From: Paraburkholderia ginsengiterrae
GTDB lineage: Bacteria > Pseudomonadota > Gammaproteobacteria > Burkholderiales > Burkholderiaceae
Direction of reading: 5' to 3'
Length of the DNA stretch: 64,000 nt
NCBI RefSeq assembly: GCF_001645125.1
Contig: NZ_LXKA01000121.1
Location: forward strand, 62,001-126,000
Numbering within the stretch: position 1 is the first letter of the stretch; every line of letters starts with the position of its first letter. Position numbers and translations under genes: made by a program. Of the stretch, positions 30,030 through 38,741 are shown one piece after another. The notes beneath the pieces are model-generated. The model did not search any database. It was not told the origin of the DNA and saw nothing but the letters and a program-made list of their open reading frames with translations.

Positions 30030-31262
30030 ATGACTGATCTTCGTCTTACCAAGCGGTTTGCAGTAATGCTGATGGCAGGCGGTCTGGTCGCCGGCTGCGG
30101 CACCTCGTCGCCGACCAAAATCGACTACAAGAGCGACTCGAAATCGAAGCAGGTTTCACTCGCTGTACCGCCGAACATGATCGATGAGACGGCCGATCAG
30201 CGTTCGTTGCCCCCGCAGGGCGGCGAAACCTCGTTGTCCACGCTCCAGCGGGTCCAGGCGCAAGCGCCGTCGGCCAATTCCGTGGTCGTGGTGCCGCAGG
30301 TCACCGGTATGCATATCCAGCGCGACGGCACGGAAAGCTGGCTCGTGATCGACAACAAGTCGCCCGATCAGGCATGGGCGCAGATTCGCCGCTTCTGGCA
30401 GGAACAGGGCTTCCTACTGGTGGTCGACCAGCGCGACAAGGGCGTGATGGAAACGGACTGGAACGAAACGCACGCGCAGATCAGCGACGGCCTGATCCGC
30501 AACACGATTTCCAAGGCCATGGGCAACAGCTATGTGACCTCGGAGCGCAACAAGTACCGCACGCGCCTCGAAACCGCGCCGAATGGCGGCACCTACGTGT
30601 TCATCAGCCAGAAGGGCATGCGCGAGGCGCTCACCGGCACCAACAACGATTCGAGCACCTGGGTGGCGAAGCCGAACGATCCGGGCCTCGAGCAGGAATA
30701 TCTGAAGCGGCTGATGGCGACGCTGGCGCTGGCCGATTCGCGCGCCAAGCCGGCTGATACGCAAAACGCCGCGCTGTCGCCGGCTGGTACGCAAACCGCG
30801 CCGAACGCGGCAACGGCAGGCGCCAAGTCGGCGGCCGCTGCCACCGCGGCGCAAAACGTCGCGCTGTCCGCCCAGCAGCCCATGCCGGACGACGCGTCCA
30901 GCAACACCGCGGCGCAGTTCTCTTCCACGGAGCTCACGCTCGGCGAGTCGTACGACCGCGCGTGGCTGCGCGTGGGCCTCGCGCTCGACCGCAGCAACTT
31001 CACCGTCGACGACCGCGATCAGAGCCGTGGCCTGTACTTCGTGCGCTACGTCGATCCGAAGGATCTGACGTCGGCGGAACAGGGCTTCTGGAGCCAGGTG
31101 TTCCACGGCAAGAAGGAAAAGGTCGCCAAGCAGTACCTCGTGAACGTGCGCGCGGTGACGCCTAACCAGACGCGCGTGGCCGTTGTCGACGACAAGGGCG
31201 CGATCGACGAAAGCCAGCAGGCCAAGCAGATCATGAGTCTGATGGTCGACCAGCTGCACTGA
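30030..31262 (+). CDS. bamC: outer-membrane assembly lipoprotein BamC
   Basis: BamC is a lipoprotein partner of the BamABCDE complex that folds outer-membrane beta-barrels. The 410-residue protein has a lipobox GLVAGC followed by the long unstructured BamC N-terminus, a first helix-grip domain (about 90-235, with AWAQIRRFWQEQGFLLVVDQRDKGVMETDW), a low-complexity Ala/Gln/Thr linker (about 240-295) and a second helix-grip domain (SYDRAWLRVGLALDRSNFTVDDRDQS). In many Proteobacteria it follows dapA; here it has its own promoter and no dapA. A strong terminator follows. Confidence 0.92.
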   Translation: MTDLRLTKRFAVMLMAGGLVAGCGTSSPTKIDYKSDSKSKQVSLAVPPNMIDETADQRSLPPQGGETSLSTLQRVQAQAPSANSVVVVPQVTGMHIQRDGTESWLVIDNKSPDQAWAQIRRFWQEQGFLLVVDQRDKGVMETDWNETHAQISDGLIRNTISKAMGNSYVTSERNKYRTRLETAPNGGTYVFISQKGMREALTGTNNDSSTWVAKPNDPGLEQEYLKRLMATLALADSRAKPADTQNAALSPAGTQTAPNAATAGAKSAAAATAAQNVALSAQQPMPDDASSNTAAQFSSTELTLGESYDRAWLRVGLALDRSNFTVDDRDQSRGLYFVRYVDPKDLTSAEQGFWSQVFHGKKEKVAKQYLVNVRAVTPNQTRVAVVDDKGAIDESQQAKQIMSLMVDQLH

Positions 31263-31291
31263 CGCCGCAGCCGGCTGCAACGCAGTCCGCA

Positions 31292-31326
31292 AACCCGCCC
31301 GGAATGAACCCCGGGCGGGTTTTTTT
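31292..31326 (+). terminator. intrinsic terminator of bamC
   Basis: AACCCGCCCGG (31292-31302) pairs with CCGGGCGGGTT (31311-31321) and runs into seven T (31320-31326), 30 bp past the stop. Confidence 0.93.
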
Positions 31327-31410: not shown

Positions 31411-31566
31411 ATGTTCGATGTGATTCCTTACTGGATGTGGGCGGCGAGCTTGCTCGCCCTGGCAATTGTGTGCGGCGCGGCCTTGGGCCGGCGGGAATCG
31501 CGCTGGCCTAGTGTCCCGCCGGTCCGGCGTGCGGCGGCGCCGCGCGCGAGGTGGCTGACGCGTTGA
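31411..31566 (+). CDS. possible small membrane protein (51 aa)
   Basis: One hydrophobic helix (YWMWAASLLALAIVCGAALG, residues 7-26) is followed by an Arg/Pro-rich basic tail. GGGG lies about 10 nt before the ATG. It sits alone between the bamC terminator and the sigma-54-type promoter. I do not recognise a family, so it could be a chance frame. Confidence 0.4.
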   Translation: MFDVIPYWMWAASLLALAIVCGAALGRRESRWPSVPPVRRAAAPRARWLTR

Positions 31567-31625: not shown

Positions 31626-31654
31626 GTAACGTGACGTTACCCCGGTGACGTAAC
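31626..31654. promoter_or_regulatory. dyad upstream of sigma-54-type promoter
   Basis: GTAACG-TGA-CGTTAC (31626-31640) is a perfect dyad. A related half, GTGACGTAAC, follows at 31645-31654. It lies about 115 bp before the -24 element, where sigma-54 activators usually bind. Confidence 0.4.
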
Positions 31655-31755
31655 TTTCCAGATATTGCTCTCCGCCCCTCCCCAGCTTCCTGCGACCGGG
31701 AAAAATTCAATAAGAATCAATCGGTTGTGCTCAATTTCAAATGGATTGTCGAAGC

Positions 31756-31770
31756 TGGCACGCAAGCTGC
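31756..31770 (+). promoter_or_regulatory. sigma-54-type promoter
   Basis: TGGCAC-GCAAG-CTGC fits the -24/-12 consensus TGGCAC-N5-TTGC with one mismatch. The invariant GG (31757-31758) and GC (31769-31770) are exactly 10 nt apart. The expected start is near 31782, with no coding frame behind it. Confidence 0.55.
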
Positions 31771-31781
31771 TTTTATAGACT

Positions 31782-31980
31782 CATGGGGACGGATGGATTG
31801 CCCGGCGCGAGTCTGTAGTGCGGGTTCGATCCACGATTCCAGACCATTCCGGCACCGGCGCATGAACCGGTGCTGAACCCAATGACGGCCTGCGCATGGC
31901 GCGCGGCCTCGGTGGCCCCGTCGCCTATCCTCGTAGGGCGACGGTTTTGCCCGCACTCCGACGGAGTGCGGGCTATTTTT
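31782..31980 (+). ncRNA. candidate sigma-54-driven small RNA, about 200 nt
   Basis: Between the sigma-54-type promoter and a strong terminator there is no convincing open frame but a run of stable hairpins. These are GCACCGG/CCGGTGC (31852-31873), a GGCC...GCGC ATG GCGC...GGCC stem (about 31887-31908), CCGTCGCC/GGCGACGG (31918-31944) and the terminator stem. The third hairpin exposes UAUCCUCGUAG; its CCUC could pair with Shine-Dalgarno sequences. I know of no named RNA that it matches. It fills most of the 501-bp gap 31567-32067. Confidence 0.5.
31949..31980 (+). terminator. strong intrinsic terminator of the candidate small RNA
   Basis: GCCCGCACTCC (31949-31959), loop GAC, GGAGTGCGGGC (31963-31973), then TATTTTTTT. 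There is no U-run on the minus strand, so it ends a rightward transcript that no annotated gene explains. Confidence 0.9.
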
Positions 31981-32067
31981 TTGCCTGCGGGATTCGTGAC
32001 AGCTGACGGGGGGAGAGACGTATAAGCGCCGGCGACGCCAGGAAGCGTCGCGCGAAACGGGGCCTTC

Positions 32068-32994
32068 TCAGGTATCCGCGCGGCGCGTGCCGATCCACGG
32101 CATGCGCTTGACCACGCCGGTAGCCAGCGCGGTGCCGACGAGTATCACGCCGCAGCCTCCCAGCATGCCTGGCGATACGCCTTCGCCGAGAAATAGCGCG
32201 CCCCACAGGATGCCGAAGATCGGAATCACGAAGGTCACCGTGATCGCACGCGCCGGCCCGGCCACCGCGATCAGATGGAAGAACAGCATATAGGCCACAC
32301 CGGTACAGGCGACACCCAGCGCGATCACCGCGCTCCATGCGTGCAGCGAGATCGGCGCCGCCGGCCAGTAGATCACGGCGAGCGGCAGCAGCACGATGGT
32401 GGCGCCCGTCATCGTGCCGGTCGCGACGGTCAGCGCGTCGACGCCGGTCAGGTGGCGCTTGGTGTAGTTGGCCGCGATGCCGTACAGCAGCGTGGCGCCG
32501 AGCGGCGCGCCGGCTGCGAGCGCGGTGGTCAGCGGCGTCGCCGCCGTGCCGTTGGGGGTGGCGATCTGATCCCACACCAGCATCAGCACGCCGAGAAAGC
32601 CGATCACCAGACCGAGCGTGCGCATGGCGCTCAGCCGATCGCGCAACCAGAGAAAGGCGACAAGCGCGCCCCACAGCGGCGTGCTCGCGTTGATCACGGA
32701 TGTTACGCCTGCGGACAGCGTCAGCTCGGCATAGGCAAACAGGCAGAACGGCGCGGCCGAATTCAGAATGCCGACCACCAGCAGCGGGAAGGCTCGCGTG
32801 CGCAGGATCGCCGCTGACTCGCGCAGCGGCCGCCGCGCGATCAGCACGATCGCGAGGAAGGCCGCGCCGATGCCGACGCGCAGCGCCATCAGCGGGGCCA
32901 CGCCGAAATCGGTGACGCCGACGCGGATAAACAGGAACGAGGCGCCCCATAGGGCGGCGAGTATCAGCAGCTGCAGCAGGTTTTTTGTGTTCAT
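32068..32994 (-). CDS. EamA/DMT family transporter
   Basis: This 308-residue inner-membrane protein has two EamA repeats and about ten helices (first repeat from LLQLLILAALWGASFLFIRV, second with AYMLFFHLIAVAGPARAITV and LFLGEGVSPGMLGGCGVIL). The family exports metabolites or takes up small molecules, and the substrate is unknown. I chose ATG 32994 because it begins just before the first helix; upstream ATGs at 33036 and 33030 would add a poorly hydrophobic stretch. Confidence 0.85.
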   Translation of the reverse strand: MNTKNLLQLLILAALWGASFLFIRVGVTDFGVAPLMALRVGIGAAFLAIVLIARRPLRESAAILRTRAFPLLVVGILNSAAPFCLFAYAELTLSAGVTSVINASTPLWGALVAFLWLRDRLSAMRTLGLVIGFLGVLMLVWDQIATPNGTAATPLTTALAAGAPLGATLLYGIAANYTKRHLTGVDALTVATGTMTGATIVLLPLAVIYWPAAPISLHAWSAVIALGVACTGVAYMLFFHLIAVAGPARAITVTFVIPIFGILWGALFLGEGVSPGMLGGCGVILVGTALATGVVKRMPWIGTRRADT

Positions 32995-33367
32995 GGGAGT
33001 CGCGCCACGCGCGGTTGAGTCGGGACGCATGATCATCGTAGCAGCGCAATCATGCGAAACGTTTCAGGCTGGAATGAAACGGCAAGATTCGGGAAATGGA
33101 CCGCGCCGGATAGTAGCGATCGTAAGCGCGGCGGCGCCGCGCGCATAACGAGCAATTCTCACGCTGATGTGAGAAAAATTGCGATGAAAGCAGTGGATGG
33201 AATCGAAGTCGGGCAGACGCGACAGCCCGCGCGCGTAAAGAGCGTGAATTATATTGCGGCAACGCAGCAGTCCGCCAGCCCGCCGAGTCGGAAGAGTGAG
33301 ATGAGCCGGCCGCGGCGCCCGCGAACCGGCACGCCGCGCTCGACACGCCCGAAAAGCGCCGCCGCAC
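32995..33367. other. 373-bp intergenic region with two dyads
   Basis: It lies upstream of the EamA gene and downstream of lldP. It holds GAAACGTTTC (33056-33065), part of GTTTCA...TGAAAC, and TTCTCAC-GCTGAT-GTGAGAA (33156-33175), either of which could be an operator. I see no gene and no clear lldP terminator. Confidence 0.4.
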
Positions 33368-34966
33368 TCAGTGCGGAATCATCCCCTGCAGGACATTTTG
33401 TTGCAGCCACACCAGCACGCCGAGCAGCACCGTCAGCAGAATCGAGTGCTTGAAGGTCTTGGCGAACACCACGCCTTCCTTGCCTTTGAGTTCGGTGGTC
33501 GCCACGCCCGTCGAGATGTTTTGCGGCGAGATCATCTTGCCCATCACGCCGCCCGACGAGTTGGTCGCCGCCATCAGCACCGGGTTGAGATTCAATTGAT
33601 GGGCCGCCACCACCTGCAGGTTGCCGAACAGCGCGTTGCCCGACGTGTCGCTGCCGGACAGGAACACCGCGACCCAGCCGAGGAACGCCGACACCAGCGG
33701 AAAGAACGGCCCGACCGAGGCGACGCCGAGGCCGAGCGTGTACGTGAGCCCGGAGTAGTTCATCAGATACGCGAGCCCGACGATGGTCGCCACGGTCAGA
33801 ATGGCGATGCGCGTCTGGATCCAGGTATCGACGACCGCCGCACCGAATTCCCTTGCGCCCAGTCCGACCACGGCGGTGGTGATCAGCGCGGCGAACAGAA
33901 TCGCCGTGCCGGTGGCGAGCGGCTGGAAGTCCCACACCGCGCCATACGGCGTGTTGTACAGCGTGATGAACACGGCCTTGTCGAGCCCCGGCCACGGCAC
34001 CTTGACGTCGCCGATCAGGAAGATCTTCGCGATGGTCCAGATAATCACCACCACCGAGACGATGATCCACGGGTACCAGCCCTTGCCGCCGCCAATCTTG
34101 CCGCGCTCCTCGCCGACCCGGTCGATGTTGATCGCGAAGCGGGGATCGGCGGCGGGTTGCCAGACGCGCAGGAATGCAATCGTCACGATGAGCGACACCA
34201 TCGACGACAGCACATCGGTCAGGCTGTAGTTCACAAAGTTCGACGAGACGAACTGCGTGAGCGCGAAGCTCGCGCCCGATACCAGCAGCACCGGCCACAC
34301 CTTCAGCATGTTGCGAAAGCCCGCATAGACGCCGATCACATAGAACGGCAGCAAGAGCGCGAAGAACGGCAACTGGCGGCCGACCATCTTGGCGAGCGAA
34401 TCGGCCGGCAGGTGCGTCACCGCGCCAAGCACGGTGATCGGCACGCCGAGGGCGCCGAAGGCCACCGGTGCGGTGTTGAAGATCAGCGTGAAGGTCAGCG
34501 CTTCGAGCGTGGGAAACCCGAACAGGATCAACAGCGAACTGGTGATGGCGACCGGCGTGCCGAACCCGGAAATGCCTTCGAGCAGCGCGCCGAACGAAAA
34601 CCCGACCACCACCAGCACGATGCGGCGGTCGTTGGGCAGGTTGTCGATCATCCACATGCGAAAGGCCGCGAAGCGGCCCGAGCGCAACGCGATGTTGTAG
34701 AGCAGGATCGCCGCGAACACGATCCACATGACCGGCCAGCAGGCGAACACCACGCCGTTGGCTACCGACGCGGCGGCGAGCCGTATCGGAAATTGCCAGA
34801 CGAAGATTGCCACGATCAGGCCGACGATCAGGCCCGCGAGCGACGCCTGCCAGGCCGGCCGGCGCGCCCAGCCGAGCAGAAGCAGCACGACGATGATCGG
34901 CAAGGCGGCGACGAGGAACGACGGCAGCAGCGAATTGCCGACGGGGGTGAGTAGTTGGTGAAACAT
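33368..34966 (-). CDS. lldP: L-lactate permease
   Basis: This 532-residue inner-membrane permease is of the LctP/LldP family and takes up L-lactate (and often glycolate) with protons. Many hydrophobic helices are seen, with family-typical stretches SGFGTPVAITSSLLILFGFP, AVFLSGSDTSGNALFGNLQ and ATNSSGGVMGKMISPQNIS. The start at 34966 has AAGGAG upstream, which rules out the longer frame. No lactate dehydrogenase genes are adjacent, so glycolate or another 2-hydroxy acid is also possible. Confidence 0.93.
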   Translation of the reverse strand: MFHQLLTPVGNSLLPSFLVAALPIIVVLLLLGWARRPAWQASLAGLIVGLIVAIFVWQFPIRLAAASVANGVVFACWPVMWIVFAAILLYNIALRSGRFAAFRMWMIDNLPNDRRIVLVVVGFSFGALLEGISGFGTPVAITSSLLILFGFPTLEALTFTLIFNTAPVAFGALGVPITVLGAVTHLPADSLAKMVGRQLPFFALLLPFYVIGVYAGFRNMLKVWPVLLVSGASFALTQFVSSNFVNYSLTDVLSSMVSLIVTIAFLRVWQPAADPRFAINIDRVGEERGKIGGGKGWYPWIIVSVVVIIWTIAKIFLIGDVKVPWPGLDKAVFITLYNTPYGAVWDFQPLATGTAILFAALITTAVVGLGAREFGAAVVDTWIQTRIAILTVATIVGLAYLMNYSGLTYTLGLGVASVGPFFPLVSAFLGWVAVFLSGSDTSGNALFGNLQVVAAHQLNLNPVLMAATNSSGGVMGKMISPQNISTGVATTELKGKEGVVFAKTFKHSILLTVLLGVLVWLQQNVLQGMIPH

Positions 34967-35325
34967 CACGTCTCCTTCGTTGTTGTTAGGACGCGACGTG
35001 CAGCTACGCACAACGGGGCGCGTCGCTCTGGCAGGACGGATGGGCGTCGGCGGCGTGTGGAGGCACGCCGGGTCGCTTATTTAAACAGGTACTGCGTGTG
35101 GCTTACCCAAGCATAGGGCCCGGCGGTGGCGCGTCAAGAAGGGAAACTACGGGCAAAGCGGGGACAAAGCAGGCGCGAGCCGGACGCGCATCTGGTGAGG
35201 GTCAGCCCGGCGCATGTGATGAGGTGCCAGCGAGGTGGAGGCGGGGAGCAGGCGCCGCGCGGCAAGAGTTGGGATGCGCGCCTGCGTGATGTGAGGGCCG
35301 AACGGTGTGAAGCGGCGTGCCTGGC
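34967..35325. other. 359-bp intergenic region upstream of lldP
   Basis: It should hold the lldP promoter (an AT-rich TATTTAAACA lies at 35080-35095) and the 3' end of the next leftward gene. I find no gene, no clear terminator and no convincing operator. Confidence 0.35.
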
Positions 35326-38399: not shown

Positions 38400-38471
38400 C
38401 TAAGCAGGAGACGAGACGGAAGTAGTCGGAAATCGCAAGAAGTGAGGCAATGGAGCTGGAGTGCGAATTCC

Positions 38472-38574
38472 GCACGCTTCCCTGCGCTGGCATTATCCAG
38501 ATCAGGTTCAAAGGGTATTTCTCACCCACGCAACACGGACCTCCAACCTCCGTGCGACGCAGGACCCCCGCGTT
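38472..38574 (-). promoter_or_regulatory. TPP riboswitch (THI element)
   Basis: On the minus strand the core is clear: GGGGGTCC, GTGGGTGAGAAATACCC (the CTGAGA-like bulge), CCCTTTGAACCTGATCTGG and ATAATGCCAGCGCAGGGA. It ends about 145 nt before thiC. The remaining gap up to 38741 shows no gene. Confidence 0.95.
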
Positions 38575-38741
38575 AGCAGCGCACACGATACACCGGGCGG
38601 CCGCTGCTTGGCAACCCATCTCGATAAGTCAGATGATGGATATAGCACCTGCCGGCAAGGGCTATTCCTGCGCTATTCCCATTCGGGCGGCGTTGCAAGG
38701 CGTCATGCGGCGCAACATGCCGCGACGCCGCCGTGCCGCGC

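Follow-up and report, generated by a model that had tools for sequence, protein, structure and literature searches.

A putative sigma-54-dependent small RNA gene conserved in Burkholderiaceae, with a Tad/Flp-locus enhancer-binding protein as its likeliest activator

In Paraburkholderia ginsengiterrae, a sigma-54-type -24/-12 element stands between a BamC-like lipoprotein gene and a convergent transporter gene. What is transcribed from this promoter, and which regulator would switch it on? A sequence-only reading of the 64,000-nucleotide stretch of DNA analysed here (the window) had taken the element for an orphan promoter driving a structured small RNA, perhaps tied to nitrogen or lactate control. 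Our sequence comparisons give good support to a structured RNA driven by sigma-54, and they make it probable that the locus is a sigma-54-dependent gene for a trans-acting small RNA (sRNA) whose likeliest activator is an enhancer-binding protein of the Tad/Flp pilus locus. Four things go beyond the earlier reading: conservation across the family, the palindromes of the enhancer, an IHF-like site and a connection to a distant regulator gene.

The sigma-54 unit and its predicted transcript

The complete sigma-54 unit spans 31626-31982 and comprises an enhancer, an IHF-like site, the -24/-12 element and an RNA of about 200 nt. Its parts and neighbours are as follows.

30030-31262, + strand: BamC-like lipoprotein gene (Pfam Lipoprotein_18), upstream of the RNA
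31626-31654, + strand: enhancer (upstream activating) region, with palindromes GTAACGTGACGTTAC (31626-31640) and GTGACGTAAC (31645-31654)
31715-31727, + strand: IHF-like site AATCAATCGGTTG, judged against WATCAANNNNTTR, which we take to be the IHF consensus
31756-31770, + strand: sigma-54 -24/-12 element TGGCACGCAAGCTGC, from pattern match and conservation
31782-31981, + strand: putative small RNA of about 200 nt, its start placed by the -12 spacing and its end by the terminator
31850-31875, + strand: hairpin 1, from the fold; paired stem changes between some loci, by eye
31879-31915, + strand: hairpin 2, from the fold; double changes in 7/7 pairs
31918-31944, + strand: hairpin 3, loop UAUCCUCGUA, near-invariant; presumed seed for ribosome sites
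31949-31981, + strand: terminator hairpin and T tract; double changes in 5/9 pairs
32068-33036, convergent: DMT-type transporter gene, downstream of the RNA
33368-35011, convergent: LctP-family permease gene, 1.4 kb downstream of the RNA

The -24/-12 element was found with the exact GG-N10-GC spacing claimed for it (GG at 31757-31758, ten bases, GC at 31769-31770) and is conserved in relatives. It is the sole zero-mismatch match to TGGCACNNNNNYTGC within the 64-kb window. Matches with at most one mismatch number 8 in the window against 12.4 expected, so that taken by itself the element could be a chance match; the support for this predicted promoter is its conservation. The enhancer lies about 105-125 bp 5' of the -24 box, within the 80-150 bp looked for, and the IHF-like site falls between the two. 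Sigma-54-dependent genes usually show the layout enhancer, IHF bend and -24/-12 element, which is the order of the predicted elements at 31626-31770. The sRNA enhancer is the only cluster of at least three GTWACG half-sites in the window; a shuffled half-site word gives two clusters of three there, and such clusters are not rare. With this enhancer and the candidate activator described below, the promoter no longer looks like an orphan.

From the -12 spacing, the RNA is expected to start at about 31782. The earlier description of some 200 nt with four hairpins and a strong terminator agrees with the fold of 31780-31982 (-100.8 kcal/mol, z -3.23; one shuffle in 200 reached so low an energy) and with the terminator hairpin (31949-31973), whose 11 pairs are followed by TATTTTTTT. 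The CCUC reported for the third hairpin is likewise present in its loop. Reading frames of at least 50 aa on the + strand between 31567 and 31981 amount to a single 51-aa GTG frame (31870-32025), and the - strand holds one 79-aa frame there.

That the RNA is not independent, and is instead an untranslated leader, the mRNA of a short protein or part of the bamC-like transcript, appears very unlikely. By eye, some Burkholderia copies have, close to the 5' end, a short frame and a GGGAGG stretch resembling a ribosome site, but the start codon of this frame varies between the Burkholderia rows, again by eye. The BamC-like gene ends in its own terminator-like site at 31291-31322; a second terminator therefore needs another transcript. 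Among the matches listed, the gene downstream could be recognised in 42 loci and is convergent in all of them, and the covariation and terminator conservation described below also speak against a leader or short-protein mRNA. The predicted transcript is thus a structured RNA with an intrinsic terminator, independent of the flanking genes, as is looked for in a trans-acting sRNA.

The window offered some further observations. A 51-aa frame beginning MFDVIPYWMW (31411-31566, + strand), between the BamC-like gene and the enhancer, resembles a small membrane protein; among the matches listed, its motif was seen again in 27 of 119 related loci. Of 18 genomes searched, 17 contain, in addition to the BamC-like gene, a more distant relative of it at about 35% identity. 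An ordinary TPP riboswitch precedes thiC (38461-38579, - strand; 61 bits).

Conservation, covariation and relation to known RNAs

A 251-nt query found a match in 80 of 145 genus genomes, and a structure model gave a strong match in 77 of 143. In 30 aligned loci, conservation is concentrated in the enhancer (near-invariant), an AATCA word, the -24/-12 element, hairpin 3 and the terminator, and the stretches between these blocks drift. When named genomes were scanned for an exact pattern, at least 119 loci were retrieved, from Burkholderia, Paraburkholderia, Caballeronia and Trinickia. Among the matches listed, the RNA lies 3' of a same-strand BamC-like lipoprotein gene in 105 of the 106 loci that could be evaluated, the 13 others having too little sequence. 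Of 112 named loci among these matches, 84 have the enhancer word no more than 160 bp from the promoter (7 of the 119 listed were left out for too little upstream sequence). Promoter and enhancer are both kept in 42/42 Paraburkholderia, 33/34 Burkholderia and 4/4 Trinickia loci among the matches listed, some records named 'Burkholderia sp.' having been placed in Paraburkholderia or Caballeronia on judgement. The IHF-like word, which like the enhancer word was scored solely at loci with the promoter word, stands 5' of the promoter in 40/42 Paraburkholderia, 18/34 Burkholderia, 2/4 Trinickia and 9/32 Caballeronia loci among the matches listed. As background, 15 of 1752 segments contained the promoter word, and none of these 15 had the enhancer or IHF word. 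The locus of P. xenovorans LB400 (L160) shows all three of promoter, IHF word and enhancer, and G143, taken as the LB400 genome, has the activator gene discussed below.

Of the 32 Caballeronia loci among the matches listed, 10 have the promoter word, 5 the enhancer and 14 a different GG-N10-GC word. Loci such as L102, L111 and L149 lack the enhancer and carry GGACAG....TTGC nearer the RNA, with TGCGCA repeats upstream; there the RNA may have switched activator.

Beyond the genus, an order-wide model search matched 10 of 300 genomes under strict filters that may have lost weak matches, and all four strong matches fall within Burkholderiaceae. In the six weak ones (29-36 bits) we saw no shared promoter, and none matched an Rfam family at its cut-off. 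Of 59 genus genomes, 27 matched a pattern that combined enhancer and promoter, mostly at the sRNA locus. The same pattern has a recurring second site in seven genomes, where its letters resemble the end of a gene on the other strand. Six loci with two-mismatch enhancer matches elsewhere in the genome were inspected, one further match being without a locus; a single one of the six showed a word resembling GG-N10-GC less than 300 bp away, on one strand, which was judged to be chance.

Where relatives lack the RNA, we inspected the region 3' of the lipoprotein gene in 18 genomes with a failed or weak RNA search. In 11 of them the permease gene follows the lipoprotein gene closely, with no trace of the unit. 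The enhancer and IHF site are kept in one genome (G008) that has lost promoter and RNA; decayed hairpins remain without the promoter in two (G059, G077); neither hairpins nor promoter are present in three (G011, G039, G081); and one genome of another genus (G146) has a different gene beside the lipoprotein gene. Taken over the 18, these patterns indicate that promoter and hairpin tend to vanish jointly.

The compensatory changes that would mark a functional fold were sought in 66 distinct 3' halves, drawn from the listed loci, at least 119 in number. Among these matches, 12 of 25 consensus pairs show double changes, and the double-change cells number 115; shuffles gave 41.5, none of 500 reaching 115, and slid controls gave no more than 26. 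They sit in hairpin 2 and the terminator; hairpin 3 hardly varies. Its invariance in this alignment is partly imposed, 23 of its letters being the search pattern, but in the loci found by similarity, which are free of that bias, hairpin 3 is exact in 30 of 30. Its inner 23 letters are likewise within one edit in 65 of the 67 genomes that hold the activator gene discussed below. Two genomes of 4.1 Mb, G015 and G044 (L394, L393), keep promoter and enhancer with an altered hairpin 3 stem, and in G044 the stem change is paired.

Rfam 15 gave no match to the RNA at its cut-offs. Below threshold, the 3' 64 nt matched RF02837 best (anti-hemB, ncS04; 31.5 bits against a cut-off of 49.5, E 3.4e-6), a family that likewise has a hairpin with a UCCUC loop followed by a terminator. 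A Streptomyces RNA family scored about as high (30.9 bits, E 0.01), also below cut-off, so GC-rich hairpins can score by chance. RF02278, a toxic sRNA of Betaproteobacteria, reached 25.5 bits against a cut-off of 50 (E 0.0011), short of membership. Its double-hairpin RNAs (ncS27) and Bordetella S17 share with our RNA a hairpin with a CU-rich loop followed by a terminator hairpin, and both are reported also to occur as a longer form that is shortened (PMC5688073, PMC11722255). S17, which is likened there to the toxic RNAs, is described as made at about 190 nt from a sigma-A-type promoter and mostly found as 67 nt (PMC11722255). Unlike RF02278 and S17, the RNA described here has one CCUC loop, a predicted length of about 200 nt and a putative sigma-54 promoter.

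We also rejected identity with ncS11 of B. cenocepacia J2315, compared by description and position only, because the position of the RNA in a relative, Burkholderia sp. MS389, speaks against it. In MS389 the RNA lies at 1.599 Mb and hemP, which we take to be BCAL2297, at 2.529 Mb (Pfam search); no hemP motif occurs in the listed loci, at least 119 in number. As described in the text of PMC5688073, ncS11 resembles our RNA in its 208 nt, terminator, convergent downstream gene and co-directional upstream gene, and lies at 2.545 Mb between BCAL2293 and BCAL2294, 3 kb from ncS63/BCAL2297. The RNA was matched to none of the 15 candidates in that paper, whose text gives no sequences, and to no row of two tables in PMC4603805, whose text likewise gives none. 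Main-text literature outside subscription journals, covered mostly by title, yielded nothing on a sigma-54-driven Burkholderia sRNA or on a sigma-54 activator of Burkholderia Tad pili, and of five papers searched by word (PMC3521395, PMC5719362, PMC5979394, PMC5748707, PMC4371752), the two on sigma-54 in P. phymatum do not mention Flp/Tad pili in their main text. The earlier description of the RNA as previously undescribed therefore stands for Rfam 15 and these main texts; it does not extend to supplementary sRNA tables, which hold 148 small-RNA starts, and the RNA may already bear a name there.

A candidate activator at the Tad/Flp locus

The suggestion that nitrogen or lactate controls the RNA, through NtrC or a lactate regulator, draws on the sigma-54 promoter and on the lactate-permease gene 1.4 kb downstream. 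It now seems scarcely credible. Sites resembling TGCACC-N4-TGGTGCA, presumably the NtrC consensus, were limited in the 3.35-kb locus to two three-mismatch matches far upstream, at chance level, with none near the promoter. Among the matches listed, the permease gene is a neighbour solely at Paraburkholderia-type loci; it is not beside the copies in Burkholderia, Caballeronia or Trinickia, in many of which the sequence runs on for several kb downstream. The gene that by eye encodes NtrC (L188) is, moreover, also present in genomes without the unit. The sequence evidence points instead to a regulator of the Tad/Flp pilus.

The genome of the window encodes 22 full-size sigma-54 activators, one of which is the candidate:

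G000:C339:86375-87806: gene L205, enhancer-binding protein with AAA+ domain PF00158 and Fis-type HTH PF02954

When eight genomes were compared, L205 was present in 4/4 that bear the unit and 1/4 that lack it, and no other activator was so distributed. It was the one activator scored across the 143 genus genomes, where it occurs in 67 of the 77 that matched the RNA strongly and in 20 of the 66 that did not (Fisher 3.5e-12, kinship ignored; the RNA-match and L205-presence lists are taken as the same 143 genomes). Among genomes that have it, promoter and enhancer are kept in 67/67, compared with 2/13 among genomes without it, in a count that used a stricter promoter pattern than the genus counts and left out 2 of 5 weak-match genomes; with a laxer pattern one more genome (G047) is intact, making 3/13.

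Ten genomes with a strong RNA match lack L205. Five (G110, G141, G136, G120, G063) have lost enhancer and promoter, their hairpin carrying 1-4 edits, and three related ones (G135, G047, G107) have an altered -24 box, with hairpins that differ from those of the intact sisters G021 and G053 by 1, 1 and 0 letters, respectively. The unit is kept without L205 in G131 and G030. The former, taken as the symbiont MAG of locus L110, has a broken terminator, and the latter is a 350-contig assembly with 10% contamination.

Kinship was taken into account on a tree of the lipoprotein, built from 75 of 77 genomes selected for it (one had no match, and G016 was dropped as in neither 143-genome set), the selection including 17 hand-picked genomes without the unit; the tree came from a short search, and 28 of its 72 inner branches are weak. 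On this tree the unit changes at least 12 times. In seven independent pairs on well-supported branches, the difference in L205 agreed with that in the unit in a mean of 5.6, there was no difference in L205 in 1.4, and the two were opposed in none (p between 0.031 and 0.125, with a median of 0.031).

L205 closes a Tad/Flp locus with genes for Flp, TadE, RcpC/CpaB, a secretin, a TadZ-like protein, a T2SSE ATPase and a Tad_C protein, and is followed by a DUF2968 gene. The half-sites of the sRNA enhancer recur in this locus. An array of 7-9 GTWACG half-sites within 120 nt stands 406-483 bp 5' of flp in seven of nine other genomes with a recognised flp, and is absent within 700 bp of the recognised flp in G044 and G015. 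Over whole stretches, a cluster of at least six half-sites is found in 14 of 15 fetched loci and in the window's genome; it is absent from G008, in whose fetched locus flp was not recognised. A strict spaced half-site pattern occurs in 8 of 16 loci. In 430,210 bases of background, there was no cluster of six or more and one of five. By eye, a sigma-70-like promoter (TTGCTT-N17-TATAAA) and no -24/-12 element was found near flp, which speaks against a simple picture of L205 action there. Five GTWACG half-sites were also noticed beside an L209-related activator gene in G003, a genome without the RNA (L337, about 2306).

It is conceivable, if unlikely, that the sRNA is sigma-54-dependent under a different enhancer-binding protein and that the Tad-locus gene merely travels along with it, for example because the RNA targets Tad mRNAs and both are useless once the pilus is lost. 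There are 22 full-size activators to choose from. Six of them (L188, L192, L193, L197, L202, L209) are present in all eight compared genomes and so cannot be excluded by their profiles, and no enhancer-like site was found in the fetched flanks of any of the 22 genes, L205 included. Against this, the enhancer half-sites recur before flp, in the very locus that encodes L205, and only L205 is found in the four unit-bearing genomes and missing from three of the four others. The Tad-locus activator is the best-supported new claim of our sequence comparisons, with the caveat that absence of L205 may stand for loss of the whole Tad locus.

Proposed mechanism and targets

GlmY/GlmZ, Qrr and CrcZ/CrcY are examples of small RNAs that are transcribed from sigma-54 promoters, have activator sites upstream and act on other RNAs; they belong to other bacteria and use other activators than the one considered here. 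For the present locus we propose that an enhancer-binding protein, most likely L205, would bind the GTWACG-type palindromes about 105-125 bp 5' of the -24 box, and in the case of L205 also the half-site array 5' of flp. IHF would bend the DNA between enhancer and promoter, and sigma-54 RNA polymerase at 31756-31770 would make an RNA of about 200 nt ending near 31981.

Since its 3' module resembles, below the Rfam cut-offs, anti-hemB and the double-hairpin RNAs, the RNA probably covers ribosome sites through its CCUC loop. Acting in trans, and probably assisted by Hfq, the loop UAUCCUCGUA would occupy GAGG-type sites, candidate targets being those that pair with UAUCCUCGU. By analogy with S17, it may perhaps be trimmed to a 3' module of about 69 nt. 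Translation would in this way be adjusted while the pilus and attachment programme is on.

Target prediction with the CCUC loop, which the sequence-only reading had suggested, gave a divided answer. The loop can pair with the flp start region in 10/10 genomes, with shuffles as good in 2-27%; yet 5 of 63 other gene starts equal the pairing energy of flp in the window's genome, and flp is not exceptional. The two best of the 63 starts fall around the Tad locus, one of them being tadE, with start codons there guessed. For B. dolosa, a fixLJ mutant with increased biofilm is reported to show higher expression of rpoN, hfq, the flp-tad genes and a CheY-like response regulator encoded nearby (PMC5234846). 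These data fit the proposed wiring without testing it.

We tentatively suggest that a sigma-54 activator belonging to the Tad/Flp locus itself would have, as its second target, a dedicated, distant trans-acting sRNA, with activator, enhancer, promoter and RNA being kept or lost together. A conserved Burkholderiaceae sRNA family without a match at an Rfam cut-off would come here with a candidate activator, which sRNA finds usually lack. If the suggestion is true, sigma-54, Tad/Flp pili and translation control would be linked: the surface-attachment programme would reshape translation via one near-invariant anti-ribosome-site hairpin, and the RNA would possibly feed back on flp and tadE.
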